Origin: a virus
IMG/VR virus record: IMGVR_UViG_3300038465_000158
Span: 1 to 64,000 of that record
Direction: 5' to 3' (one strand)
Length of the DNA stretch: 64,000 bases
Part shown: piece by piece, positions 21,200-32,411 of the stretch
Position numbering within the stretch: position 1 is the first letter of the stretch
Layout: each line of letters begins with the position of its first letter
Position numbers and translations under genes: made by a program
The notes under the pieces: model-generated
What the model was told of the DNA's origin: nothing
Database searches by the model: none
What the model saw: only the letters and a program-made list of their open reading frames with translations

Positions 21200-22648
21200 A
21201 TGGAGTTTGACCAGAAGCAACGAGAGATTGCGGCTGACCCTGTCGTGTGGATTAAGGAAGTTCTCAATGAACAGCCATGGAGTAAACAACAAGAGATCGC
21301 AATTTCCGTTCGCGATAATCGTCGTACAGCAGTGAAGAGTTGCCATGACGTCGGAAAGAGTTTCATTGCTTCTAGAATCATCTGCTGGTGGATTTCATCT
21401 CATCCACCAGGGGAAGCCTTCGTCGTCACGTCCGCTCCGACATTCCAGCAAGTCCGTGCTATTCTCTGGCGAGAAGTTGGCAAGGCTCATGCAAAAGGCA
21501 ATCTCATCGGTACAATGAACGAGACAGAATGGAAGATTGGAAAAGAACTCGTTGGCTTCGGTCGGAAGCCTAGCGACTATTCTCCGACAGCATTCCAAGG
21601 TATCCATGCACGGTACGTACTGGTTGTCCTAGATGAGGCATGTGGTGTCCCTGAATCGCTTTGGGATGCTGCCGACACATTGATTCCTAACGAAGCATCC
21701 CGCATTCTCGCCATCGGAAACCCTGACGACCCAACGACGGAGTTTGCGAAAGTCTGTCAGACAAACACTGACTGGAACAAAATCAAAATCAGTGCGTATG
21801 ATTCTCCCAATTTTACTGGTGAACCCGTTTCTAAAGAAGTCAGCGAACTTCTCATTTCGAAGACGTGGGTAGCAGAAAAAGAGAAGAAGTGGGGAAAGAA
21901 TCATCCGTTCTGGCAATCAAAGGTTCTCGGAGAGTTTCCTCAACAGAGCGCAACTGCGCTTCTTCCTCTTAATCAACTGTTTGACGCTGCACGGCGGACG
22001 ATTGAACCGACTGAAGAAGAAATCGAACATGCGACTATTGGTGTAGACGTTGCTCGATTCGGCAGTGACCGCACAGTCATTTCTATTCGTCGAGGTGGAT
22101 GGGCTCGTATCATCCACAGCGCAATTGGAAATGACACAATGGAAACAGCCGGTCTCGTTCGTCGCTATATCAAGACGTACAAGGCTGAACTGACGGCTAT
22201 TGACACAGTCGGAGTCGGCGGTGGAGTCTACGACCGGTTGAGTGAAGACGGAGAAAACGTCTTTGCGATGATTGCGTCTGCTCGACCCCATGATTACGTC
22301 ACATTCGCTAACGCTCGCGCTGAATGGTACTGGAACCTTCGCGAAGTTCTTGAGCGTGGCGAACTCGACATTGATGAGGAAGACGAAGACTTGCTCTCTG
22401 AGTTAGCGAGTCTTCAGTTCAAAGTCGATTCACGTGGTCGAATTCTCTGTGAAAGTAAAGATGAGATGAAAAAGCGTGGTTTAGACTCGCCAGACCGTGC
22501 TGACTCTCTCGTGCTTTCATTTGGCGCTCCAGTCTTTCTCGATTGGAACGCCGCGTACGGTGTTCTTGAATGTGTAAGCTGCAAACGTTCGTTTGTGGAG
22601 GAAGGTCGCACCGCATGCCCGCATTGCAACGCGAAGATTGACTATTGA
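21200..22648 (+). CDS. terL: Terminase large subunit (TerL)
   Basis: 482 residues. It translocates and cuts DNA during packaging. Walker A is KSCHDVGKS (46-54), Walker B is LVVLDEA (141-147) and the ATPase coupling region is LAIGNP. RNase H-like nuclease acids are in GVDVARFGSD (Asp283), AIDTVGVGG (Asp335) and PDRADS (Asp432/435). Unusually it ends in a zinc ribbon, CVSC...CPHC (458-476). The start has a weak ribosome site. Upstream codons stay open back to the previous gene but contain no standard start. Confidence 0.93.
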   Translation: MEFDQKQREIAADPVVWIKEVLNEQPWSKQQEIAISVRDNRRTAVKSCHDVGKSFIASRIICWWISSHPPGEAFVVTSAPTFQQVRAILWREVGKAHAKGNLIGTMNETEWKIGKELVGFGRKPSDYSPTAFQGIHARYVLVVLDEACGVPESLWDAADTLIPNEASRILAIGNPDDPTTEFAKVCQTNTDWNKIKISAYDSPNFTGEPVSKEVSELLISKTWVAEKEKKWGKNHPFWQSKVLGEFPQQSATALLPLNQLFDAARRTIEPTEEEIEHATIGVDVARFGSDRTVISIRRGGWARIIHSAIGNDTMETAGLVRRYIKTYKAELTAIDTVGVGGGVYDRLSEDGENVFAMIASARPHDYVTFANARAEWYWNLREVLERGELDIDEEDEDLLSELASLQFKVDSRGRILCESKDEMKKRGLDSPDRADSLVLSFGAPVFLDWNAAYGVLECVSCKRSFVEEGRTACPHCNAKIDY

Positions 22649-23205
22649 TGACCATCGCTCACTATGAAATCTACGTAGTTGAAAATGATGAATACTGGTA
22701 CGTTGGTAGCGCTTCAGGAAATTCATCTGCAGAAAAACGATTTCAAAAACATATCGCAGGTAAAGGCGCTGATGGATTTAAGAATATATTAGATGTTCAA
22801 TTTACATTTAGAATTTTAGAAACTGGTTTAGATGATGTTATTGATCGTGAACAGCACTGGTTTGAAATATTTCAAGCAATTGACGTACGAAAATGCTTAA
22901 ATAAAAAAGCACCAAAGGCGTCATGGCCGTCTACTTTACCAGGTACTCATCTTTCTGAAGAACGACGACAGAAAATAAGTAAAAGTCGCAGAGGTACTGT
23001 TTTGTCTATTGAAACTCGAATGAAGATAAGCAAAAGTCTTAAAGGACATGAAGTATCTGTTATTACTCGACAAAAAATTGGTGATATACATGCAGGAAAA
23101 ATAGTTACTGACGACGTGAGAAAAAAGATAAGCGAAAGTCGTATGGGTCATGTAGTATCAATTTCAACTCGGCAAAAAATTAGTGAAGCACGGCGTAAAC
23201 AATGA
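22648..23205 (+). CDS. GIY-YIG homing endonuclease with NUMOD3 repeats
   Basis: 185 residues, ATG overlapping the TerL stop. The N-terminus YEIYVVENDEYWYVGSASG is the GIY-YIG motif (EIY...YVG), followed by EKRFQKHI and an acidic-His segment (DREQHWFE). The C-terminal half has about five NUMOD3-type units (S-E-E-R-R-Q-K-I-S, then KSRRG and similar). It is visibly more AT-rich than its neighbours, a sign of recent arrival. TerL is intact around it, so it is free-standing, not intron-borne. Confidence 0.85.
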   Translation: MTIAHYEIYVVENDEYWYVGSASGNSSAEKRFQKHIAGKGADGFKNILDVQFTFRILETGLDDVIDREQHWFEIFQAIDVRKCLNKKAPKASWPSTLPGTHLSEERRQKISKSRRGTVLSIETRMKISKSLKGHEVSVITRQKIGDIHAGKIVTDDVRKKISESRMGHVVSISTRQKISEARRKQ

Positions 23206-23789: not shown

Positions 23790-23800
23790 AGGAGTTTCTG
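23790..23800 (+). promoter_or_regulatory. Ribosome site with CTG start (portal)
   Basis: AGGAG-TTT-CTG. No ATG, GTG or TTG occurs in frame until ATG 23894. The intervening 32 codons read ADSLVRGLKTRANAQ and onward, a plausible N-terminus. Confidence 0.7.
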
Positions 23801-26800
23801 GCCGATTCGCTTGTACGAGGTCTGAAGACACGAGCTAATGCTCAACGTGCTGCTGCGCAAAGCGGCGGCGTAGGAGCAAACGGCCCAGCGCCAATGAACT
23901 ACGGTGCTGGAAGTGTGATGCAACAGTACAACGAGTGGAACTTCGGAATTTCCTACGGCAAAGCACTTCCACGCGCATGGGATGTCTTCGCATCTGGAGC
24001 ATTCGGTCCATTGGCGCCTCCAGTGCCAATGGGCATTGATGCTCCGCAAGACGGAGCAGACCGCCCTGAACCAAGGCGGATGCAGTATCCCATCGCCTGG
24101 AATATGCCGACTGGTCAACCAGGTAGTGAAGGTCTCAAGCTCGTCTCGTTCGCGAACCTTCGCGCGTATGCGGACATGTACTCTGTGGTTCGCGCTTGCA
24201 TCCAAGTCCGCAAGGAAGAGATTCTCGGTCTTGACTGGGACATCATACCAACGGACGGTGCATCGAGAGACATGCGAGATGACCCAGACAAGCATCAAGA
24301 CTTCCAGGACCGTCGAGACGAAGCGCTTCAGTTCTTCAAGCGACCTGACCCAAACTACCACGACTTCTCTGGCTGGATGTCGGCGCTTCTTGAAGACGTT
24401 TTCGTTGTCGATGCACTGACGCTCTACTTGCATCCGCCACGTCTCCGTAACAAGGGTCTATTCGGTTCGAACCTGGCAGCGATTGAAGTACTTGACGGTA
24501 CGACGATTCGTCCGATGCTCGACATCCGCGGCGGCACTCCTCGGCCGCCGCAAGTCGCGTATCAGCAATATCTCTACGGCATTCCGCGAGTGGACCTCAT
24601 GGACATCATCCTGGAGTCAGACATCGACCAGATGGATGACCCAGTAGAGGAATATGACGCCGACCAGATTCTCTATCTTCCATACACTCGACGGACGTGG
24701 ACTCCGTACGGATTTCCTGGCATTGAACGCGCAATCGTTCCAGTGATGACTGGTCTTCGGCGCCAGCAATTCCAGTTGGACTTCTTCAGCGAAGGTTCAA
24801 TCCCTGGCCAATTCGTCATCCCGGGTGATGACATCAGTACTCCGCAACAGATTCGTCAGTTGCAAGACACTTTGAACGCTATTGCTGGTGACCAAGCCTG
24901 GAAGCATAAGATTATCGTTCTTCCTCGTGGTTCTGACACAAAACCACAAAAGCCGCTTTCTCTTACTGATGAATTTGACTACACGGTCGTACAGATGGTT
25001 GCAATGGCGTACAACGTGATGCCGGGTGAAATTGGAATGTCTGGCGGCGGCAAATCTGCATCGGAAGCATCGAGTGCAGCTGGCGCAATGGCGAAAGAAA
25101 GTTCTGACATCAACCGACGAACGTCGTTGAAACCGATGCTTCAATGGCTTGAAAATGCGATTTTCAATCATATTCTTCAAGACATTTGTGGACAAGATGA
25201 CATGCAATGGGTTTGGGTCGGTTTGGAAGAGACAGCCGATGAAGAAACGCAAGCTAGCAACATGGAGATCCTCATTGGAACTGGTGTTCTTTCAATTGAT
25301 GAAGCTCGAGCGCAGCTCGGAATGCCGCCATGGGGACTTCCACTCACAAGTGATCCGGTCTTTGCCACAGCGACTGGACTCACGAGTCTCGGTCTCATTG
25401 CTCCAGCTGCCGCGGACGCTCAACTCGGTGCTCCAGTTGCGGACGCTGCAGCGAACGGCGGAACTCCTTTAACCGCGAGTACTCCACTTCCTGCGCAACT
25501 TCCGTCAGGCGCCAATTCTGCTCCGACGGTCATCGGCCCAGCATCCTCCCCCGCCTCAGCAGGAACGCCAGGTGCGGGTGGACGGCCAGCAGCAAGTGGC
25601 GCGAAGGCACCTTCGGTCTCCGCGCCCGCTGCGGGTTCAAGTACACCGCTCACTGCTGGAAGCAAGAAAAAGCCTAGGAAGCAGTCGAAAGCTCTTGAAA
25701 TCGCTTCGCTGAATGAACTTGATGGTCTGCGACGTGCGCTAAAGAAGCGGAGGCCGATTGACAATTGGAACTCGATGTTCCTCTCTGAAGATGTGGTCGA
25801 AAAAGTTCGCATTGTCTACAACATGACGGCAAGTGTTGAGAAGGCGATTTCTGCTGGTCGTGTCCTCGTCAAGAGCGAACAGCGAGTTCAACGTCGGGCT
25901 GACACGATTGAGGGTATCGCTTCGAATGTCTCTACCGGACTTGCTGACCTTGCGGCTCAAATCGACAATCCTGACGTTGGGATGCTTGGATTCATTGACG
26001 GTGGTACTCAAGTTCTGCAGCAGGGATACCACGCTGCATTCAACGCTGCGGCGCAAGACGCTGTTACTTCGTACAACGGCATCAACCCCATCGGACCGAA
26101 TGACTTCCGATTCCTCGCTGAGCAACGGGCTGAGAAGCAGCGAGGGTACTTGACTGGTCTTGCTCAAGACATCAAGGGTGGAACGACTCAAGCGCAGTTG
26201 AACAACCGCATCAATCTCTACGCGAGTTCTCTCGTCCCAGCTTACGAGCAGGGATACGGATTGACGGTACTTTCCAGTCCACTTCGTGGTCCGAATCCGA
26301 ATGTCGGCCCGTATGACCCGAGTGATATGGGAGACTACGGCGCTCTTAACGACTTGTACTCTGCTGATGCGACGCCCAATGACAGCGGTAATGGGATGTT
26401 CGCGCTGTCTGCTCTCGCTGCGCTAGTCGCAGGCGGGATGCTGGTTGACGACGCGATTGGCGCTGGACAACTTGGCAACAGCAGCGACGTTCCTCCGACA
26501 GATGACGGAACTGTTCCGCCAGCATACGGAATCACTTGGCACGTCAACAACGAAGACCCGTGTGAACTTTGCGCAGACCGCGACGGTCAAGTCTACACAC
26601 TGGACAGTCTACCTTGCTGGCCCGGAGATGGTGGATTCGGAGAATTCTGCGATGGAGCAGCGAATTGTCGTTGCACTCTCGAGTATGGCGATGCTGCAGG
26701 GACAATCACTGCAGACAATCCGTTCAGTGACATCTCTAACCAGTTCTACCCAGAACGACAAGCGCAAGAAGCGTCAGATGACCAGCGGTCAATTGATGCT

Positions 26801-27529
26801 CGCAATGCCGACATCGCTTCTGTCGCTGACATCAGTCCAGGCGCCGCGGACCGTATGGCCGCTCGTGATGCTCAGTTCGGCACTCCGGGTACGCGATTCG
26901 CGCCTGGTGGTAACCTGGCAGCGGCTGAAGTGCCAAGTCTTCTGAAGGCATCTGACATTGAGGACTTGGTCTACGGCTACCTCGCCAAACAATACACGAA
27001 AGATTCGATTGCTTGGGTGAAGGATGCAACATGGACGTACGATCCTGAAGTCGACGTGAGTAGCCTTGTTCTCGCGCGGCCAACACTCGAAACGAATGAC
27101 GAGAAAGTCGCTGCCATCAAGGACAAGATTGGCAACGGCGGTGGAATCAAACCACTCGTGATTGTGAAGACCCTCCAAGGCAATGAGGTAGTCGACGGTA
27201 ACCACAGGGTCAATGCTCTTCGAGAGATGGGTATTCATACTGCGGCAGCGTACGTTGGGGCCGGAAATGACCATCTGGGTCAGTATGCCGTTGCTATGCA
27301 GCATGAAGATGCACAGAAGTTGTACAAAGCACTCGACCCGTCGATGCTCACGACACTTCAAATTGGTGATTTGGTTTACGATGACGATGTCATTGTCTTC
27401 TCGACAACGCGACCCAATGCAACGGTAGTCGCTGTAGTCAAGAACGCTTTGTCAAACGAATTCACACCAGGTCAAGAGATGCTCGTCACTGACATCACAG
27501 ACAATGAGGTTATCCTGGAGATTCAGTAG
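23798..27529 (+). CDS. Portal-MuF-ParB-like fusion protein
   Basis: 1243 residues from CTG 23798 (ATG 23894 would drop 32). Residues ~1-540 are a portal protein (IQVRKEEILGLDWDI; EYDADQILYLPYTRRT; FFSEGSIPGQFV; GEIGMSGGGKSASEA). A Pro/Ala/Gly linker (~540-630) leads to a MuF-type minor head domain (~640-985) with EQGYGLTVL and the terminal Cys cluster CELCADRDGQVY...CRC. Residues ~1048-1170 carry GGGIKPLVIV...VVDGNHRVNALREMGI, a ParB/sulfiredoxin-like domain. The portal forms the DNA entry ring. The other parts may be internal or ejected. Portal-MuF fusions are known; the added ParB-like part is less usual. Confidence 0.85.
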   Translation: MADSLVRGLKTRANAQRAAAQSGGVGANGPAPMNYGAGSVMQQYNEWNFGISYGKALPRAWDVFASGAFGPLAPPVPMGIDAPQDGADRPEPRRMQYPIAWNMPTGQPGSEGLKLVSFANLRAYADMYSVVRACIQVRKEEILGLDWDIIPTDGASRDMRDDPDKHQDFQDRRDEALQFFKRPDPNYHDFSGWMSALLEDVFVVDALTLYLHPPRLRNKGLFGSNLAAIEVLDGTTIRPMLDIRGGTPRPPQVAYQQYLYGIPRVDLMDIILESDIDQMDDPVEEYDADQILYLPYTRRTWTPYGFPGIERAIVPVMTGLRRQQFQLDFFSEGSIPGQFVIPGDDISTPQQIRQLQDTLNAIAGDQAWKHKIIVLPRGSDTKPQKPLSLTDEFDYTVVQMVAMAYNVMPGEIGMSGGGKSASEASSAAGAMAKESSDINRRTSLKPMLQWLENAIFNHILQDICGQDDMQWVWVGLEETADEETQASNMEILIGTGVLSIDEARAQLGMPPWGLPLTSDPVFATATGLTSLGLIAPAAADAQLGAPVADAAANGGTPLTASTPLPAQLPSGANSAPTVIGPASSPASAGTPGAGGRPAASGAKAPSVSAPAAGSSTPLTAGSKKKPRKQSKALEIASLNELDGLRRALKKRRPIDNWNSMFLSEDVVEKVRIVYNMTASVEKAISAGRVLVKSEQRVQRRADTIEGIASNVSTGLADLAAQIDNPDVGMLGFIDGGTQVLQQGYHAAFNAAAQDAVTSYNGINPIGPNDFRFLAEQRAEKQRGYLTGLAQDIKGGTTQAQLNNRINLYASSLVPAYEQGYGLTVLSSPLRGPNPNVGPYDPSDMGDYGALNDLYSADATPNDSGNGMFALSALAALVAGGMLVDDAIGAGQLGNSSDVPPTDDGTVPPAYGITWHVNNEDPCELCADRDGQVYTLDSLPCWPGDGGFGEFCDGAANCRCTLEYGDAAGTITADNPFSDISNQFYPERQAQEASDDQRSIDARNADIASVADISPGAADRMAARDAQFGTPGTRFAPGGNLAAAEVPSLLKASDIEDLVYGYLAKQYTKDSIAWVKDATWTYDPEVDVSSLVLARPTLETNDEKVAAIKDKIGNGGGIKPLVIVKTLQGNEVVDGNHRVNALREMGIHTAAAYVGAGNDHLGQYAVAMQHEDAQKLYKALDPSMLTTLQIGDLVYDDDVIVFSTTRPNATVVAVVKNALSNEFTPGQEMLVTDITDNEVILEIQ

Positions 27530-29685
27530 TGGAAGCAATTCAACTCCGCTCTGATGTCTGGTTGCCTAATATCATTCGATTCGGATGGACACCTCGAGTT
27601 GTCAAATACTCTGAAGATGAGGAACGGAACTCTCGAGGTGAGTGGTTTCCTGACGACTTTGACCCCGACTCGGAATTGGCTGAGCAACCAGAAGAACTGC
27701 ATGCTCCGAAGAAACTTCTCAAGTATGACGATGACGAAGAACGAGATTATCACGGTCGTTGGACAAGCGGTGGAGACAGCGGTCCGCCGGAATTGCGGCC
27801 AGTTCCACAGTTAGTTGCTGGTGACACATTTGAGCATGCACGACTTGGAGTCGTTACGGTCGTTTCAACCGAGCCGCAACCACGGAATAATCAGTACACT
27901 CGTATCACAGCCACTGATGCGACTGGCAAGCAAGTCAAGTTTGACATCTCTGGCCGCAAGACGGTGGCACTCATCTCTCGTGGATCTGGAATTGCCACTC
28001 CGCCACCAAAGGAAGAAACCGGACCGAGAGTTAGCATTACAAAAGAAGACACGAAAGAACTTCGTGGGCAAATGAAAGAAGCGCAAACTCGAGTTAACGA
28101 AGACTTGAAAGCACGTAATCTTGCGCAGATGCGTGGTGATATATCGCAACGAGAAGCGCAGATGAAGAATCGTGCTGCAGATGCAATGACATCAACTCGG
28201 AAATTCGGTGCGCAGATCAGTTCGACAATTGATAGTCTTGTTGATCGTGAACTCGGTCGTCTTGACATCAAATCATCTGGTGATGAAAAAGCAGATCAAC
28301 TTGAACGTATGCGATTGTCAAATGAATTGCAGAGTACTCGAACAACTCCAGAATTCAGAGATGCACAAGCTAGATTTCTTGTAGATTATCAAAACGGATT
28401 TGCTACCAAAACGACAGCAGCAATTGGTCAAGCGCTTGAGAATATAGGCGTAGGACAACACGCGCAAAGTATTGGTAATGGTGCCGGCAATACGCTATAC
28501 GAAATTAAGCAAAGTGATATCGACGCATTTAAGGCAGGATTGCATGAAAGTGCAAAAACTTCAACTGCATATAATTTTTCTGCTGGCGGCACGTCAACAA
28601 TTCAACTTGGTGGAACTGCAGTAGACGTTACCAATGCACGAATTGTAAACACGGCCGCATCTGGATCAGCAATGGAAGAAGTCACTGGACGATACATGTA
28701 TAATCCCTACATGTCGGAACTTGTGCTTCCTAGCGGCGGGCATGTGTCAATGTACGACTTATATCAAGCAAATAAGCAAGGTTTTAAAGATCTTGGCATT
28801 TCACTTAGTATGAGCGCTAACGCCGGTCTTCGTGCCACAAATGGGTATGATGCTCGAATGGCGTACAACAATTTGCTTCGTGACGGTACTCCGATGCCTG
28901 GCAAGATCAAACTTGGTCTAGTCACAGAAGACACAATTCAACGTGTGAAAGACGCTTACGCGCCGTACTATGCTGTAAAAGAAAAAATCGCTTCAAGTAC
29001 AGCTGGTCAAAGCACCAAAGATCAGATCGCTCAAGTTCGACAGGCAGTGACATTTGCTGTTCTCGGCCAACTTCGTCCGCTTGGAGACATCAACTCGTTC
29101 GGGACAAATGTGCTTTACAGTAGTGCTGGAAGGTGGACGTACGACAAAGTAGGAAACGCAAAGTACGCAAACTTCGGTAAAGAACTAGTTGGACGAGCGG
29201 CTACGATGCTTCCTGTTGACTGGTTGCAAAACATCAAATCACTGAGAGTCAATACAACTTCCAGCACAGGTAGAAGTTACAACAACGGTGGTTACATTGA
29301 ACTCAAAGTTGGGAAACCACTAAGTGATGTTAAAGAGCCGTTTGACTCACGAGTGAGCACGACAGTTCATGAATTGATGCACGCAATTGAAACATCAACT
29401 AGAGATGTTTCTACTCTCGAAGAAGCGTACTGGCGAGATCGTTGCCCAAACGAGTACAAGACCAAATCAGTTGGAAGCGGTCGTGATAAGGGTGACCCTG
29501 ACACTTTCAAATCTGCATATTCTGGCAGATACTACGGCGGTAGAGGCAACTGGGAAATAGGTTCAATGGGCATGGAAGGCCTCTATGCGGATAAGGTTCA
29601 AACGAGAGAAGATCCCGACTACAAATCATTCATGCTCGGAATGGTCGCTCTTGCTGGCGGAAGAGATAGGAAGAAAACGCAATGA
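27529..29685 (+). CDS. RDxxGRW-tagged zincin-like metallopeptidase, probable virion protein
   Basis: 718 residues from a GTG overlapping the portal stop. Two similar N-terminal tags, YSEDEERNSRGEW (~30-40) and YDDDEERDYHGRWTSGG (~68-82), resemble the RDxxGRW motif common in phage head-associated proteins. A coiled coil follows (~170-250). TVHELMHAIE (His614, Glu615, His618) is an HExxH zinc site, and MEGLYADKV downstream may supply the third ligand. Placed within the head operon, it is probably packaged and could cut host proteins on entry. That role is an inference. Confidence 0.65.
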   Translation: MEAIQLRSDVWLPNIIRFGWTPRVVKYSEDEERNSRGEWFPDDFDPDSELAEQPEELHAPKKLLKYDDDEERDYHGRWTSGGDSGPPELRPVPQLVAGDTFEHARLGVVTVVSTEPQPRNNQYTRITATDATGKQVKFDISGRKTVALISRGSGIATPPPKEETGPRVSITKEDTKELRGQMKEAQTRVNEDLKARNLAQMRGDISQREAQMKNRAADAMTSTRKFGAQISSTIDSLVDRELGRLDIKSSGDEKADQLERMRLSNELQSTRTTPEFRDAQARFLVDYQNGFATKTTAAIGQALENIGVGQHAQSIGNGAGNTLYEIKQSDIDAFKAGLHESAKTSTAYNFSAGGTSTIQLGGTAVDVTNARIVNTAASGSAMEEVTGRYMYNPYMSELVLPSGGHVSMYDLYQANKQGFKDLGISLSMSANAGLRATNGYDARMAYNNLLRDGTPMPGKIKLGLVTEDTIQRVKDAYAPYYAVKEKIASSTAGQSTKDQIAQVRQAVTFAVLGQLRPLGDINSFGTNVLYSSAGRWTYDKVGNAKYANFGKELVGRAATMLPVDWLQNIKSLRVNTTSSTGRSYNNGGYIELKVGKPLSDVKEPFDSRVSTTVHELMHAIETSTRDVSTLEEAYWRDRCPNEYKTKSVGSGRDKGDPDTFKSAYSGRYYGGRGNWEIGSMGMEGLYADKVQTREDPDYKSFMLGMVALAGGRDRKKTQ

Positions 29686-30170: not shown

Positions 30171-32411
30171 GCTCATATAGTTGATGTACCGGTCGAAGCC
30201 GGCGCCGAAGAAGTTTACTTCGGTGTGCCCATCACAAAAATGGAAGTCCAGTCCGATGGCACTGTCATCGTTGGTGGACTTTGCACCAGCGACAACCTTG
30301 ACCTCGACGACCAAATCATCGACTTGGACTTCTCGAAAAAGGGTCTCACTCTCTGGCAGAACACTTGGAAGAACGTTCGCCAAATGCACTCGACAGACTT
30401 GCCGCCTGCTGGCAATGGTCTTCTCATCGATGCCACTCGTCCTGACGGTGTCTACCTTGAGGCTCACATCATTGAGCCCGGTGCTGTTCACCTCACCAAG
30501 ACTGGTGTGTACAAAGCTTTCAGTGTCGGCGTTTCACGACCTCGAATCATTCGAGACAAAATCGCAAAGAACGGCCGAGTCATCGACGGCATCTTCTCGG
30601 AAGTCTCAATTGTGGACTTTCCAGCGAATCCAGTTTCTGCGTTCAGTATCATCAAACGCAAGAAGTCTGAGATAAATAAGATAGCAAAGACGTTGACGGC
30701 AATCGGTTCAATTGTGCAGTACCAAACAGACGAGAAGGGGCTTATGGCCAAGAGAATCAGTGGAACCGCTGCAGAAGTTACAAAGGCTGGAGACCCGGAC
30801 TGCAAAACCTGCGGAGGCAGTGGCAAGATCAAGGACGGCAACATGGATTGCCCCGATTGCGTCAACAAAACTGTCGAACCTGAAGCGACTAAGGCCGCTC
30901 CTTGCGCCGACTGTGGCGGAAGCGGTACCATGCCTGACGGTTCAAAGTGCATGAAGTGCGCAGTTGTTGAATCTGATGTCGAAAAGTCTGATGACGGTTC
31001 TGAAGTCGAGAAGAAAAAGGATGACTCTGATGATTCGGACGACGATTCGGATGATTCAGACGACTCTGATGATTCTGACGATTCTGACGATTCTGACGAC
31101 GACAGCGATGACGATTCTGATGATTCAGACGACGACGATGATTCTGATGACGACGTCAAGAAGACCGTTGACGGCGTGGCGTATGCGCTTCGTCGGGCAC
31201 ACGACGTCCTTTGTGACGCCTATTCTCCCACCGTCATTGCTGCGAGTCACCCATCGGTGGAGAAGATGGGTTACAAGGCACTTCTCGAGCCGGCAGTCAT
31301 TCGTACGTTGCTCAGTACGCTGGCCGACTCGAGCGACCCGCATCAGTTGGCTGAACTCGCTGGCGCTGTCGGCGCTGCGCAGATGCTCACCACGGTTGGT
31401 GATTCGGAAATCGCTGACGCGCACGCGACAGTGAACAAAGCATTCTCGGATGAGTATCCGACGGCGCATCCGACTCCCGGCAGCATCACACCTGGACAGT
31501 TCACGCGTTCATATCTCTCCGCAGGTCGAGTTCCTGCGATGCCGTCTGGTTCGCCTCGAATTCCTGCCGCGAACAGCGACATCGATGCTGATGACTTCAC
31601 GAGCGGTCCGATTACGGACGGTCGCGAATCTCCTTCGCCAGAGAATGGCGGAAGTCACCCGTCCTCGACGAAGACTGCGCAACAGCAAATCGCTGCTGCA
31701 ACAGCGGACACAGTCCTCAACGCGACGACTGCTCTTCACGACCACATCGCTTCAGCGTATCCGACGATTTGCTCGCTCGACCAGGGAGCTGGATTTTCTG
31801 GCGGTGGAGTCGAAAGTCTGAACACTGACGGAAGCATTCGCTCGGTTGCCGCGGCCGCAACGCCGGAACTGTCGAAGGCTGAGAAGAAGGAAAAGAAGGC
31901 TGAAAAGCGAGCCAGGAAGATTGAAAAGGCTCGTGCGCTTCTCGCTGAACTCGAGAACGACAAGGATGACGATGATGTCATCGAAGCCACTCCAGACCCT
32001 TCAGTTCTCAAGGCCGTCACGACGACTGAAGGCGAAATTCTTCTCGACACCGATGCTCTCAATGCAATCATTGAAGGAATCGTTGTCAAGCACCTTGGTG
32101 ACAAGTTCCAGGACATCGACAAGGTTGTCGGTGAAGTACAGGCGGACATCAAGAAAATCGGTAGCGAACCGGACCCTGCCAAGGCCCCAATGAGGGGTGG
32201 CGTTGGATTCGAGCGAGCAATTGAAAAGCAAGCCGTGGCCACAGAGGCGGATAGACTCCGCGAGGTCGCGAATGCAGACGTCAAGGACCAAATCGAGTAC
32301 CTCACGGAACTCAAGAAGTCAGGCAATGCAGAACTTCGTCTGCGTGCTGAAAACGAACTGTCCAAGTTGCTCGAACGTGCGGCGCTCGCGCCTGCATCAG
32401 TAAGCGGCTAG
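30168..32411 (+). CDS. Prohead protease fused to zinc, acidic and scaffold-like regions
   Basis: 747 residues from CTG 30168. Residues ~1-175 look like an actinophage prohead protease: LDLDDQIIDLDF, NVRQMHSTDLP (His), FSVGVSRPRI, EVSIVDFPANPVS. Then two DnaJ-like knuckles (CKTCGGSG...CPDC and CADCGGSG...CMKC, ~209-264), an Asp/Ser acidic run (~284-330), a helical domain, and a C-terminal coiled coil (SKAEKKEKKAEKRARKIEKA, ~565-740) typical of scaffolding. It should mature the capsid and guide its assembly. Confidence 0.75.
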   Translation: MAHIVDVPVEAGAEEVYFGVPITKMEVQSDGTVIVGGLCTSDNLDLDDQIIDLDFSKKGLTLWQNTWKNVRQMHSTDLPPAGNGLLIDATRPDGVYLEAHIIEPGAVHLTKTGVYKAFSVGVSRPRIIRDKIAKNGRVIDGIFSEVSIVDFPANPVSAFSIIKRKKSEINKIAKTLTAIGSIVQYQTDEKGLMAKRISGTAAEVTKAGDPDCKTCGGSGKIKDGNMDCPDCVNKTVEPEATKAAPCADCGGSGTMPDGSKCMKCAVVESDVEKSDDGSEVEKKKDDSDDSDDDSDDSDDSDDSDDSDDSDDDSDDDSDDSDDDDDSDDDVKKTVDGVAYALRRAHDVLCDAYSPTVIAASHPSVEKMGYKALLEPAVIRTLLSTLADSSDPHQLAELAGAVGAAQMLTTVGDSEIADAHATVNKAFSDEYPTAHPTPGSITPGQFTRSYLSAGRVPAMPSGSPRIPAANSDIDADDFTSGPITDGRESPSPENGGSHPSSTKTAQQQIAAATADTVLNATTALHDHIASAYPTICSLDQGAGFSGGGVESLNTDGSIRSVAAAATPELSKAEKKEKKAEKRARKIEKARALLAELENDKDDDDVIEATPDPSVLKAVTTTEGEILLDTDALNAIIEGIVVKHLGDKFQDIDKVVGEVQADIKKIGSEPDPAKAPMRGGVGFERAIEKQAVATEADRLREVANADVKDQIEYLTELKKSGNAELRLRAENELSKLLERAALAPASVSG

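Follow-up and report, generated by a model that had tools for sequence, protein, structure and literature searches.

A viral portal protein carrying a divergent MuF-like segment and a ParB/sulfiredoxin-fold domain in a single chain

A single gene in the first 64,000 nucleotides of the IMG/VR virus record IMGVR_UViG_3300038465_000158 (96,685 bases in total; the 64,000 nucleotides are called the window in the following) encodes a phage portal protein of 1243 residues, whose C-terminal half includes both a MuF-like segment and a ParB/sulfiredoxin (Srx)-fold domain. By sequence profile, the nearest solved relatives of the ParB/Srx domain are the free serine kinase SerK and SbnI, not the ParB proteins of DNA partition. 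The domain is under strong purifying selection and was found in most portals of the same clade. The favoured explanation, to which a probability of about 0.45 is given, is that it constitutes an enzyme which is carried in the virion and released from the portal, rather than a fixed module for assembly or ejection. The features of the chain are as follows (contigs used for comparison carry L numbers).

23790-23800, plus strand: AGGAG ribosome-binding-like site and CTG start codon (from the sequence; TTG in L120, L123, L125 and L126)
23798-27529, plus strand: full chain of portal, linker, MuF-like segment, ParB/Srx domain and C-terminal tail (1243 residues; unbroken in L001)
24182-25321, plus strand: phage portal domain, residues 129-508 (PF04860, phrog_2662)
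25418-25717, plus strand: Ala/Pro/Gly/Ser-rich linker, about residues 541-640 (from the sequence)
25868-26512, plus strand: helical part of the MuF-like segment, residues 691-905 (alignment; helices in the AlphaFold2 (AF2) model)
26534-26686, plus strand: MuF-like Cys motif WHV..CELCADRDG..C.GAANCRCTLEY, residues 913-963 (alignment of 8 chains)
26948-27337, plus strand: ParB/Srx-fold domain, residues 1051-1180 (PHROG, PDB profile, AF2/Foldseek)
27194-27208, plus strand: DGNHR motif (D, G, H and R constant across the 21 aligned chains; the SerK version is DGHHR)
27338-27526, plus strand: C-terminal extension special to the clade of the window, residues 1181-1243 (low-confidence beta structure, predicted local distance difference test (pLDDT) about 35-53)

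The ParB/Srx-fold domain

A first-pass annotation of the window, made by a model from the letters alone, had placed a ParB/sulfiredoxin-like domain at residues 1048-1170 and proposed a fold prediction of this region as a check. The predicted fold bears this placement out. Searches with the single sequence gave weak matches (Pfam ParB_N, E 0.037; PHROG ParB, E 1.1e-5; PDB Spo0J, E 1e-3). An alignment of 21 chains exhibited eight invariant columns, among them the D, G, H and R of the D-G-x-H-R loop, and the AF2 model built from this alignment has a confident core (mostly pLDDT 82-96). When the model was compared with the PDB by Foldseek, structures of ParB, Srx and SerK were all matched with a probability of 1.00. 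The top matches by E-value were CDP-bound ParB (E 6.7e-6) and Noc; sulfiredoxin 6ky4 was matched with a TM score of 0.77 by target (2.4 Å, 89 columns), SerK at 2.3-2.7 Å, and SbnI was matched as well. An assignment to the ParB/Srx fold is thus well supported by the model.

The PDB profile matches gave a different ranking, with SerK (E 1.2e-6 to 2.4e-6 for the best matches, within a range of about 1e-6 to 5e-6) and SbnI (E 1.2e-5 to 4e-4) both ahead of ParB. The loop, which reads DGNHR in the window, is DGHHR in SerK and DGVHR in SbnI. As the domain appears nearer to SerK and SbnI than to partition ParB, the earlier label 'ParB-like' is apt for the fold but should not imply DNA partition. The domain is best called a ParB/Srx-fold domain without assigned chemistry, which probably binds nucleotides. 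Established family profiles did not capture it: PF02195 at E 1e-3 on the record does not pick up the domain of the window, PF18763 (DdrB-like ParB) scored 14.2 bits against a cut-off of 27.6, and domains of the portal-fused family, when tested alone, stayed below the cut-off of every Pfam family. The C-terminal extension behind the domain is also present in L002, L012, L120, L123, L125, L126 and L129.

Integrity of the chain

Positions 23798-27526 form one open frame of 1243 codons without any internal stop, followed by the stop codon at 27527-27529, so that the portal, MuF-like and ParB-like parts do reside in one polypeptide, as had been claimed. A frameshift or stop between the domains, named beforehand as the observation that would speak against the fusion, was not seen: the independent contig L001, which matches window positions 23846-27772 at 99.9% over 3,927 bases, is open through all domains. 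The frame starts with a CTG just behind the AGGAG, an in-frame TAG lies three codons upstream of this CTG, and the first ATG, GTG or TTG in the frame is the ATG at 23894. In L120, L123, L125 and L126 a TTG stands at the position matching the CTG and is followed by a homologous peptide (SEDSVIKGLKARANAQR in L120 vs ADSLVRGLKTRANAQR in the window). Because the homology to these TTG-bearing relatives reaches residue 1, the CTG is likely the start of translation of the portal chain. Between residues 501 and 1130 the only in-frame start preceded by a Shine-Dalgarno sequence is a TTG at residue 785, which precedes the Cys motif and therefore does not suggest a free ParB product.

Portal domain and MuF-like segment

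The DNA-entry ring part of the chain is clearly recognisable, with a match to Phage_portal (PF04860) at residues 129-508 that covers the full profile (1-321 of 321; E 4.7e-16; 59.3 bits, cut-off 39.1; Pfam) and a match to the portal family phrog_2662 (E 2.3e-56; PHROG). The dN/dS (ratio of nonsynonymous to synonymous substitution rates) of the portal domain was 0.10 in comparison with L012, and a gene for the large terminase subunit is located nearby (21200-22648). The least conserved stretch of the chain, residues 541-690, is about 0.48 identical to L012.

Less firmly, the segment at residues 691-963 can be named a divergent MuF-like segment. A Cys pattern, WHxx..CxLCxxRDG...CxGxxNCxC, is conserved at the same place (residues 913-963) in 8 chains, namely that of the window and seven other portal chains; in the window it reads WHV..CELCADRDG...CDGAANCRCTLEY and follows a helical stretch. 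A CxxC ... C-x-C motif behind a helical stretch, within or beside the portal, is the motif by which MuF members are recognised, and the variant of the window lacks the usual His of HPxCRC. The MuF domain of the first-pass annotation thus holds for the conserved Cys motif but finds no counterpart in the profile collections, as the segment matched no family in Pfam or PHROG. An alignment to canonical MuF by hhalign gave a probability of 1.7%, and tblastn detected no relative of the segment among 50,697 isolated phage records. In the AF2 model the helical part, as far as residue 200 of the model, has pLDDT values of 66-92 by block, about residues 829-905 are a low-confidence insertion, and the Cys region is of low confidence. 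The structural matches of this model were weak (best E 8e-3), several of them being to proteins named 'minor capsid' or 'head morphogenesis'.

Distribution and domain architectures

IMG/VR was scanned with the ParB/Srx domain, which yielded 34 and then 129 relatives, of which 80 were kept. Most of them are situated in the C-terminal half of a portal that belongs to the family seen in the window. The domain is also fused to other portal types, namely PF06381 (L028, L113), phrog_145 (L029, L089, L092) and other PF04860 portals (L023, L043, L099, L105). In L083, L047 and L132 an unfused copy is encoded directly behind the portal gene. A scan in the opposite direction, for which the query was the portal domain alone and the best 80 of 133 matches were kept, gave 67 unique portals, 59 of them not cut by a contig end. 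The ParB/Srx domain was found in the same chain in 52 of these 59 (88%) and in a nearby open reading frame (ORF) in 2 of 59. As the query alignment of the portal had been built from chains with ParB and the matches were limited to the best 80, the 88% holds for the portal clade of the window and not for portals in general.

The order of the domains varies: portal-MuF-ParB was found 18 times, portal-ParB 8 times, portal-MuF-ParB-NUDIX 6 times, and portal-NUDIX-ParB and portal-ParB-NUDIX 5 times each. Many members have NUDIX and ParB/Srx in one chain, and a single one gave a weak 2H match. This is a chain of 1390 residues (L009:82-4251) with portal, NUDIX, ParB/Srx and a weak match to 2H (2′-5′ RNA ligase), with a separate gene for the MuF motif downstream. 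An apparent intein containing a LAGLIDADG endonuclease splits a portal-ParB chain in L021 (3328-6399). Outside portal chains, the module is found near the N-terminus of a HELIH zincin-like protein (L026:5860-7764) and near the N-terminus of a 2162-residue ORF downstream of an ADP-ribosyltransferase-like ORF (L057:5665-12150). Weak ParB matches in L038, L041 and L042 turned out to be ordinary ParB-like proteins outside the portal-fused family and were excluded.

Among the 50,697 isolated phage records no relative of the ParB/Srx domain was detected by tblastn with six domain queries. The bacterial genomes contributed a single locus, in a prophage-like element (L043) of Kitasatospora humi RB6PN24, with a PF04860 portal and ParB (second genome-collection scan; none in the first).

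Selection and exchange

The window and L002 (95% protein identity) were compared by the method of Nei and Gojobori. The ParB/Srx domain exhibited a dN/dS of 0.018, an approximate value as dS is high (1.74), and thereby the lowest among the regions with a computable value; the Cys motif reached 0.07 and the flanks 0.14-0.16. The domain is under strong purifying selection. Distances of the portal and ParB parts correlate (Mantel r 0.67). Yet, in L120, L123, L125 and L126 the portal is 75-80% identical to that of the window and the ParB domain just 40-45%, whereas L012 reaches 76% for the portal and 75% for the ParB domain. The flanking spacer and the C-terminal tail are about equally similar to the window in L012 and in those four contigs. 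The simplest reading of these few cases would be that the ParB segment was exchanged among close relatives.

Neighbouring genes

Directly behind the portal gene lies a cassette gene (27529-29685; L001:3682-5966). Up to 27772 and from 30078 onwards, L001 agrees with the window at 99.9%, and the DNA between these two positions has no match. The products share the N-terminus ERDYHGRWTSG and then continue into unrelated C-termini, which is HELMH zincin-like in the window and different in L001; L002 (81% identical) carries the window type. By its sequence, this cassette looks like a polymorphic effector locus. The next gene of note, at 30225-32411, has a prohead-protease-like N-terminus (MHS, AFSVGVSRP, EVSIVDFPANP) that is fused to a long, scaffold-like Asp/Ser repeat. 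Its product gave no protease-type Pfam match of its own; the protein encoded directly after the portal of THSA-485A has a weak Peptidase_S78 score (E 0.013, below cut-off). The gene is a candidate for a protease, which a release of the tethered domain would call for. Upstream, a GIY-YIG/NUMOD3 homing-endonuclease-like gene (22645-23205) lies between the terminase and portal genes.

Proposed role of the ParB/Srx domain

The portal part of the chain would build the packaging ring, and its C-terminal tail, comprising the flexible linker, the MuF-like segment and the ParB/Srx domain, would by the general layout of portals and by analogy to SPP1 gp7 lie inside the capsid beside the DNA. Portal stoichiometry suggests about twelve copies per virion, the number also given in the first-pass annotation, so that each particle is probably equipped with around a dozen enzyme-like modules. 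The domain would bind a nucleoside triphosphate (NTP) via its D-G-x-H-R loop and, judging from profile and fold, would perform chemistry of the phosphotransfer or NTP-hydrolysis type like SerK or Srx, and not act as a DNA-partition clamp. While it is still attached to the portal, the domain cannot enter the cell behind the DNA, and cleavage is a necessary step: the domain would be freed by proteolysis, enter together with the genome and act on nucleotides or on a host target at the onset of infection. A virion-carried enzyme appears the likeliest use because the chain-mates of the domain in relatives are nucleotide enzymes (NUDIX, 2H). The chain combines several domains, some of them enzyme-like, with a head protein among late genes, a pattern expected of polyvalent or virion-injected multidomain proteins.

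Several points weigh against a releasable enzyme. The position of Glu30 of SerK, whose catalytic role is suggested by the mutants named in its PDB entries, is Ala in 17 of the 21 aligned chains and Leu in the clade of the window; a Glu one residue off this position occurs in that clade only. The catalytic Cys of Srx (G-C-H-R) is replaced by Asn in the window (G-N-H-R) and by His, Trp or Tyr in relatives, most of which, such as L025, read G-H-H-R. The MuF identity of the middle segment comes from its motif only. Furthermore, portal proteins remain behind in the empty capsid, which makes cleavage a requirement for delivery, and a domain that is nearly universal in its portal clade might serve structure or packaging instead.

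This last point leads to the most serious rival, which we regard as somewhat less likely than the releasable enzyme, namely that the domain stays on the portal as a housekeeping, NTP-binding module that aids head assembly, DNA packaging or orderly ejection. Its presence in 52 of 59 full-length portals, its divergence in step with the portal and the strong purifying selection within an allele would fit with such a role, proteolytic release is a proposal only, and the MuF protein gp7 of SPP1 is a head protein bound to the portal (PMC5576092) and, according to the title of a paper cited there, required for efficient infection. However, ParB/Srx takes different positions with respect to MuF and NUDIX, and there are chains that do without it. 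Moreover, portals that are 75-80% identical carry ParB domains of only about 40-45% identity between about equally similar flanks, a pattern at odds with a structural component that is adapted to its portal. A bolder idea, that the portal ring of this uncultivated phage group carries a dodecamer of NTP-binding ParB/Srx domains which serves inside the virion as a nucleotide-responsive switch or as an enzyme on the passing DNA, a portal function for which no model phage is known, has in our view a small chance of being correct.

It is likewise improbable that the domain is a ParB-like DNase, in the sense of the literature on polyvalent proteins, for counter-defence or host takeover, which would be released into the cell and act on host or rival DNA. 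The swapped, effector-like cassette next to the portal gene is consistent with this, but the DdrB-ParB score is about half of its Pfam cut-off, the nearest profile relatives are kinases instead of nucleases and no nuclease motif was recognised in the domain. Recruitment of a CTP-dependent partition or DNA-clamp ParB to the portal, as the leading Foldseek matches to CDP-bound ParB and Noc might imply, is very hard to reconcile with the other data: Pfam gave no helix-turn-helix or dimerisation family match in the chain, a ParA-binding motif is absent, the GERR signature of ParB reads GNHR, the profile prefers SerK and no ParA-family match (PF13614; control positive in 14 of 14 genomes) was obtained in the 96,685-base record, which is possibly a fragment. 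A decayed remnant or an artefact of chance read-through or a chimeric contig, which the CTG start and the weak single-sequence Pfam score might have hinted at, is refuted by the same architecture in the independent contigs L001, L012, L120, L123, L125 and L126 and by the dN/dS of 0.018.

If this picture is correct, a type of domain with known roles in chromosome partition, redox repair and serine phosphorylation would be a standard part of the DNA-entry ring in an uncultivated phage group, and an uncatalogued ParB/Srx family would be added to the domains which phages may carry in their heads. It also becomes testable whether portal-tethered enzymes act within the virion or have to be cut loose for the host, a choice that the published 'packaged and injected' reading leaves open.

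Comparison with known systems

The SerK structures (5x0e, 5x0b) and SbnI share the fold and the DGxHR loop with the domain of the window, although the match covers about residues 11-83 of the 242 residues of SerK and the Glu30 position is occupied by Ala or Leu. Sulfiredoxin (6ky4, 1xw3) has a similar compact fold and a G-x-H-R loop, but differs in the catalytic Cys, for which the window has Asn. A recent survey of the ParB-CTPase fold (PMC12704722, 2025) describes CTP, ATP or GTP as ligands of this fold and frequent fusions with other domains in phages; portal, MuF and NUDIX partners are not in its text, and its PF02195-based search would probably score domains of the window type low.

Among cultured phages, gp3 of Arthrobacter phage Sonali and the portals of Polewnik, THSA-485A and MMB025 resemble the chain of the window in joining a portal and a C-terminal Cys/MuF motif, with Sonali gp3 containing a NUDIX domain in between. 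Unlike in the window, the Cys motif of these proteins follows the usual HPxC pattern and none of the four exhibits a DGxHR motif. Enzyme domains on head or portal proteins are also known from polyvalent proteins and portal/MuF-effector fusions, including the DdrB-type ParB in P1, and passages of the respective papers (PMC5512222, PMC9503650) propose packaging and injection for PBECR, 2H, NUDIX and pyrophosphatase domains that are joined to a portal or MuF protein. ParB/Srx on a portal is not described in these passages, and the ParB domain of the window is below the DdrB-type cut-off. In the text of the open-access papers searched (figures not covered), no portal bearing a SerK/Srx-like ParB domain was encountered. 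With portal-MuF and portal-NUDIX-MuF fusions in cultured phages and the polyvalent theme already published, ParB/Srx on a portal represents a variant of the known theme of multidomain proteins packaged in the virion.

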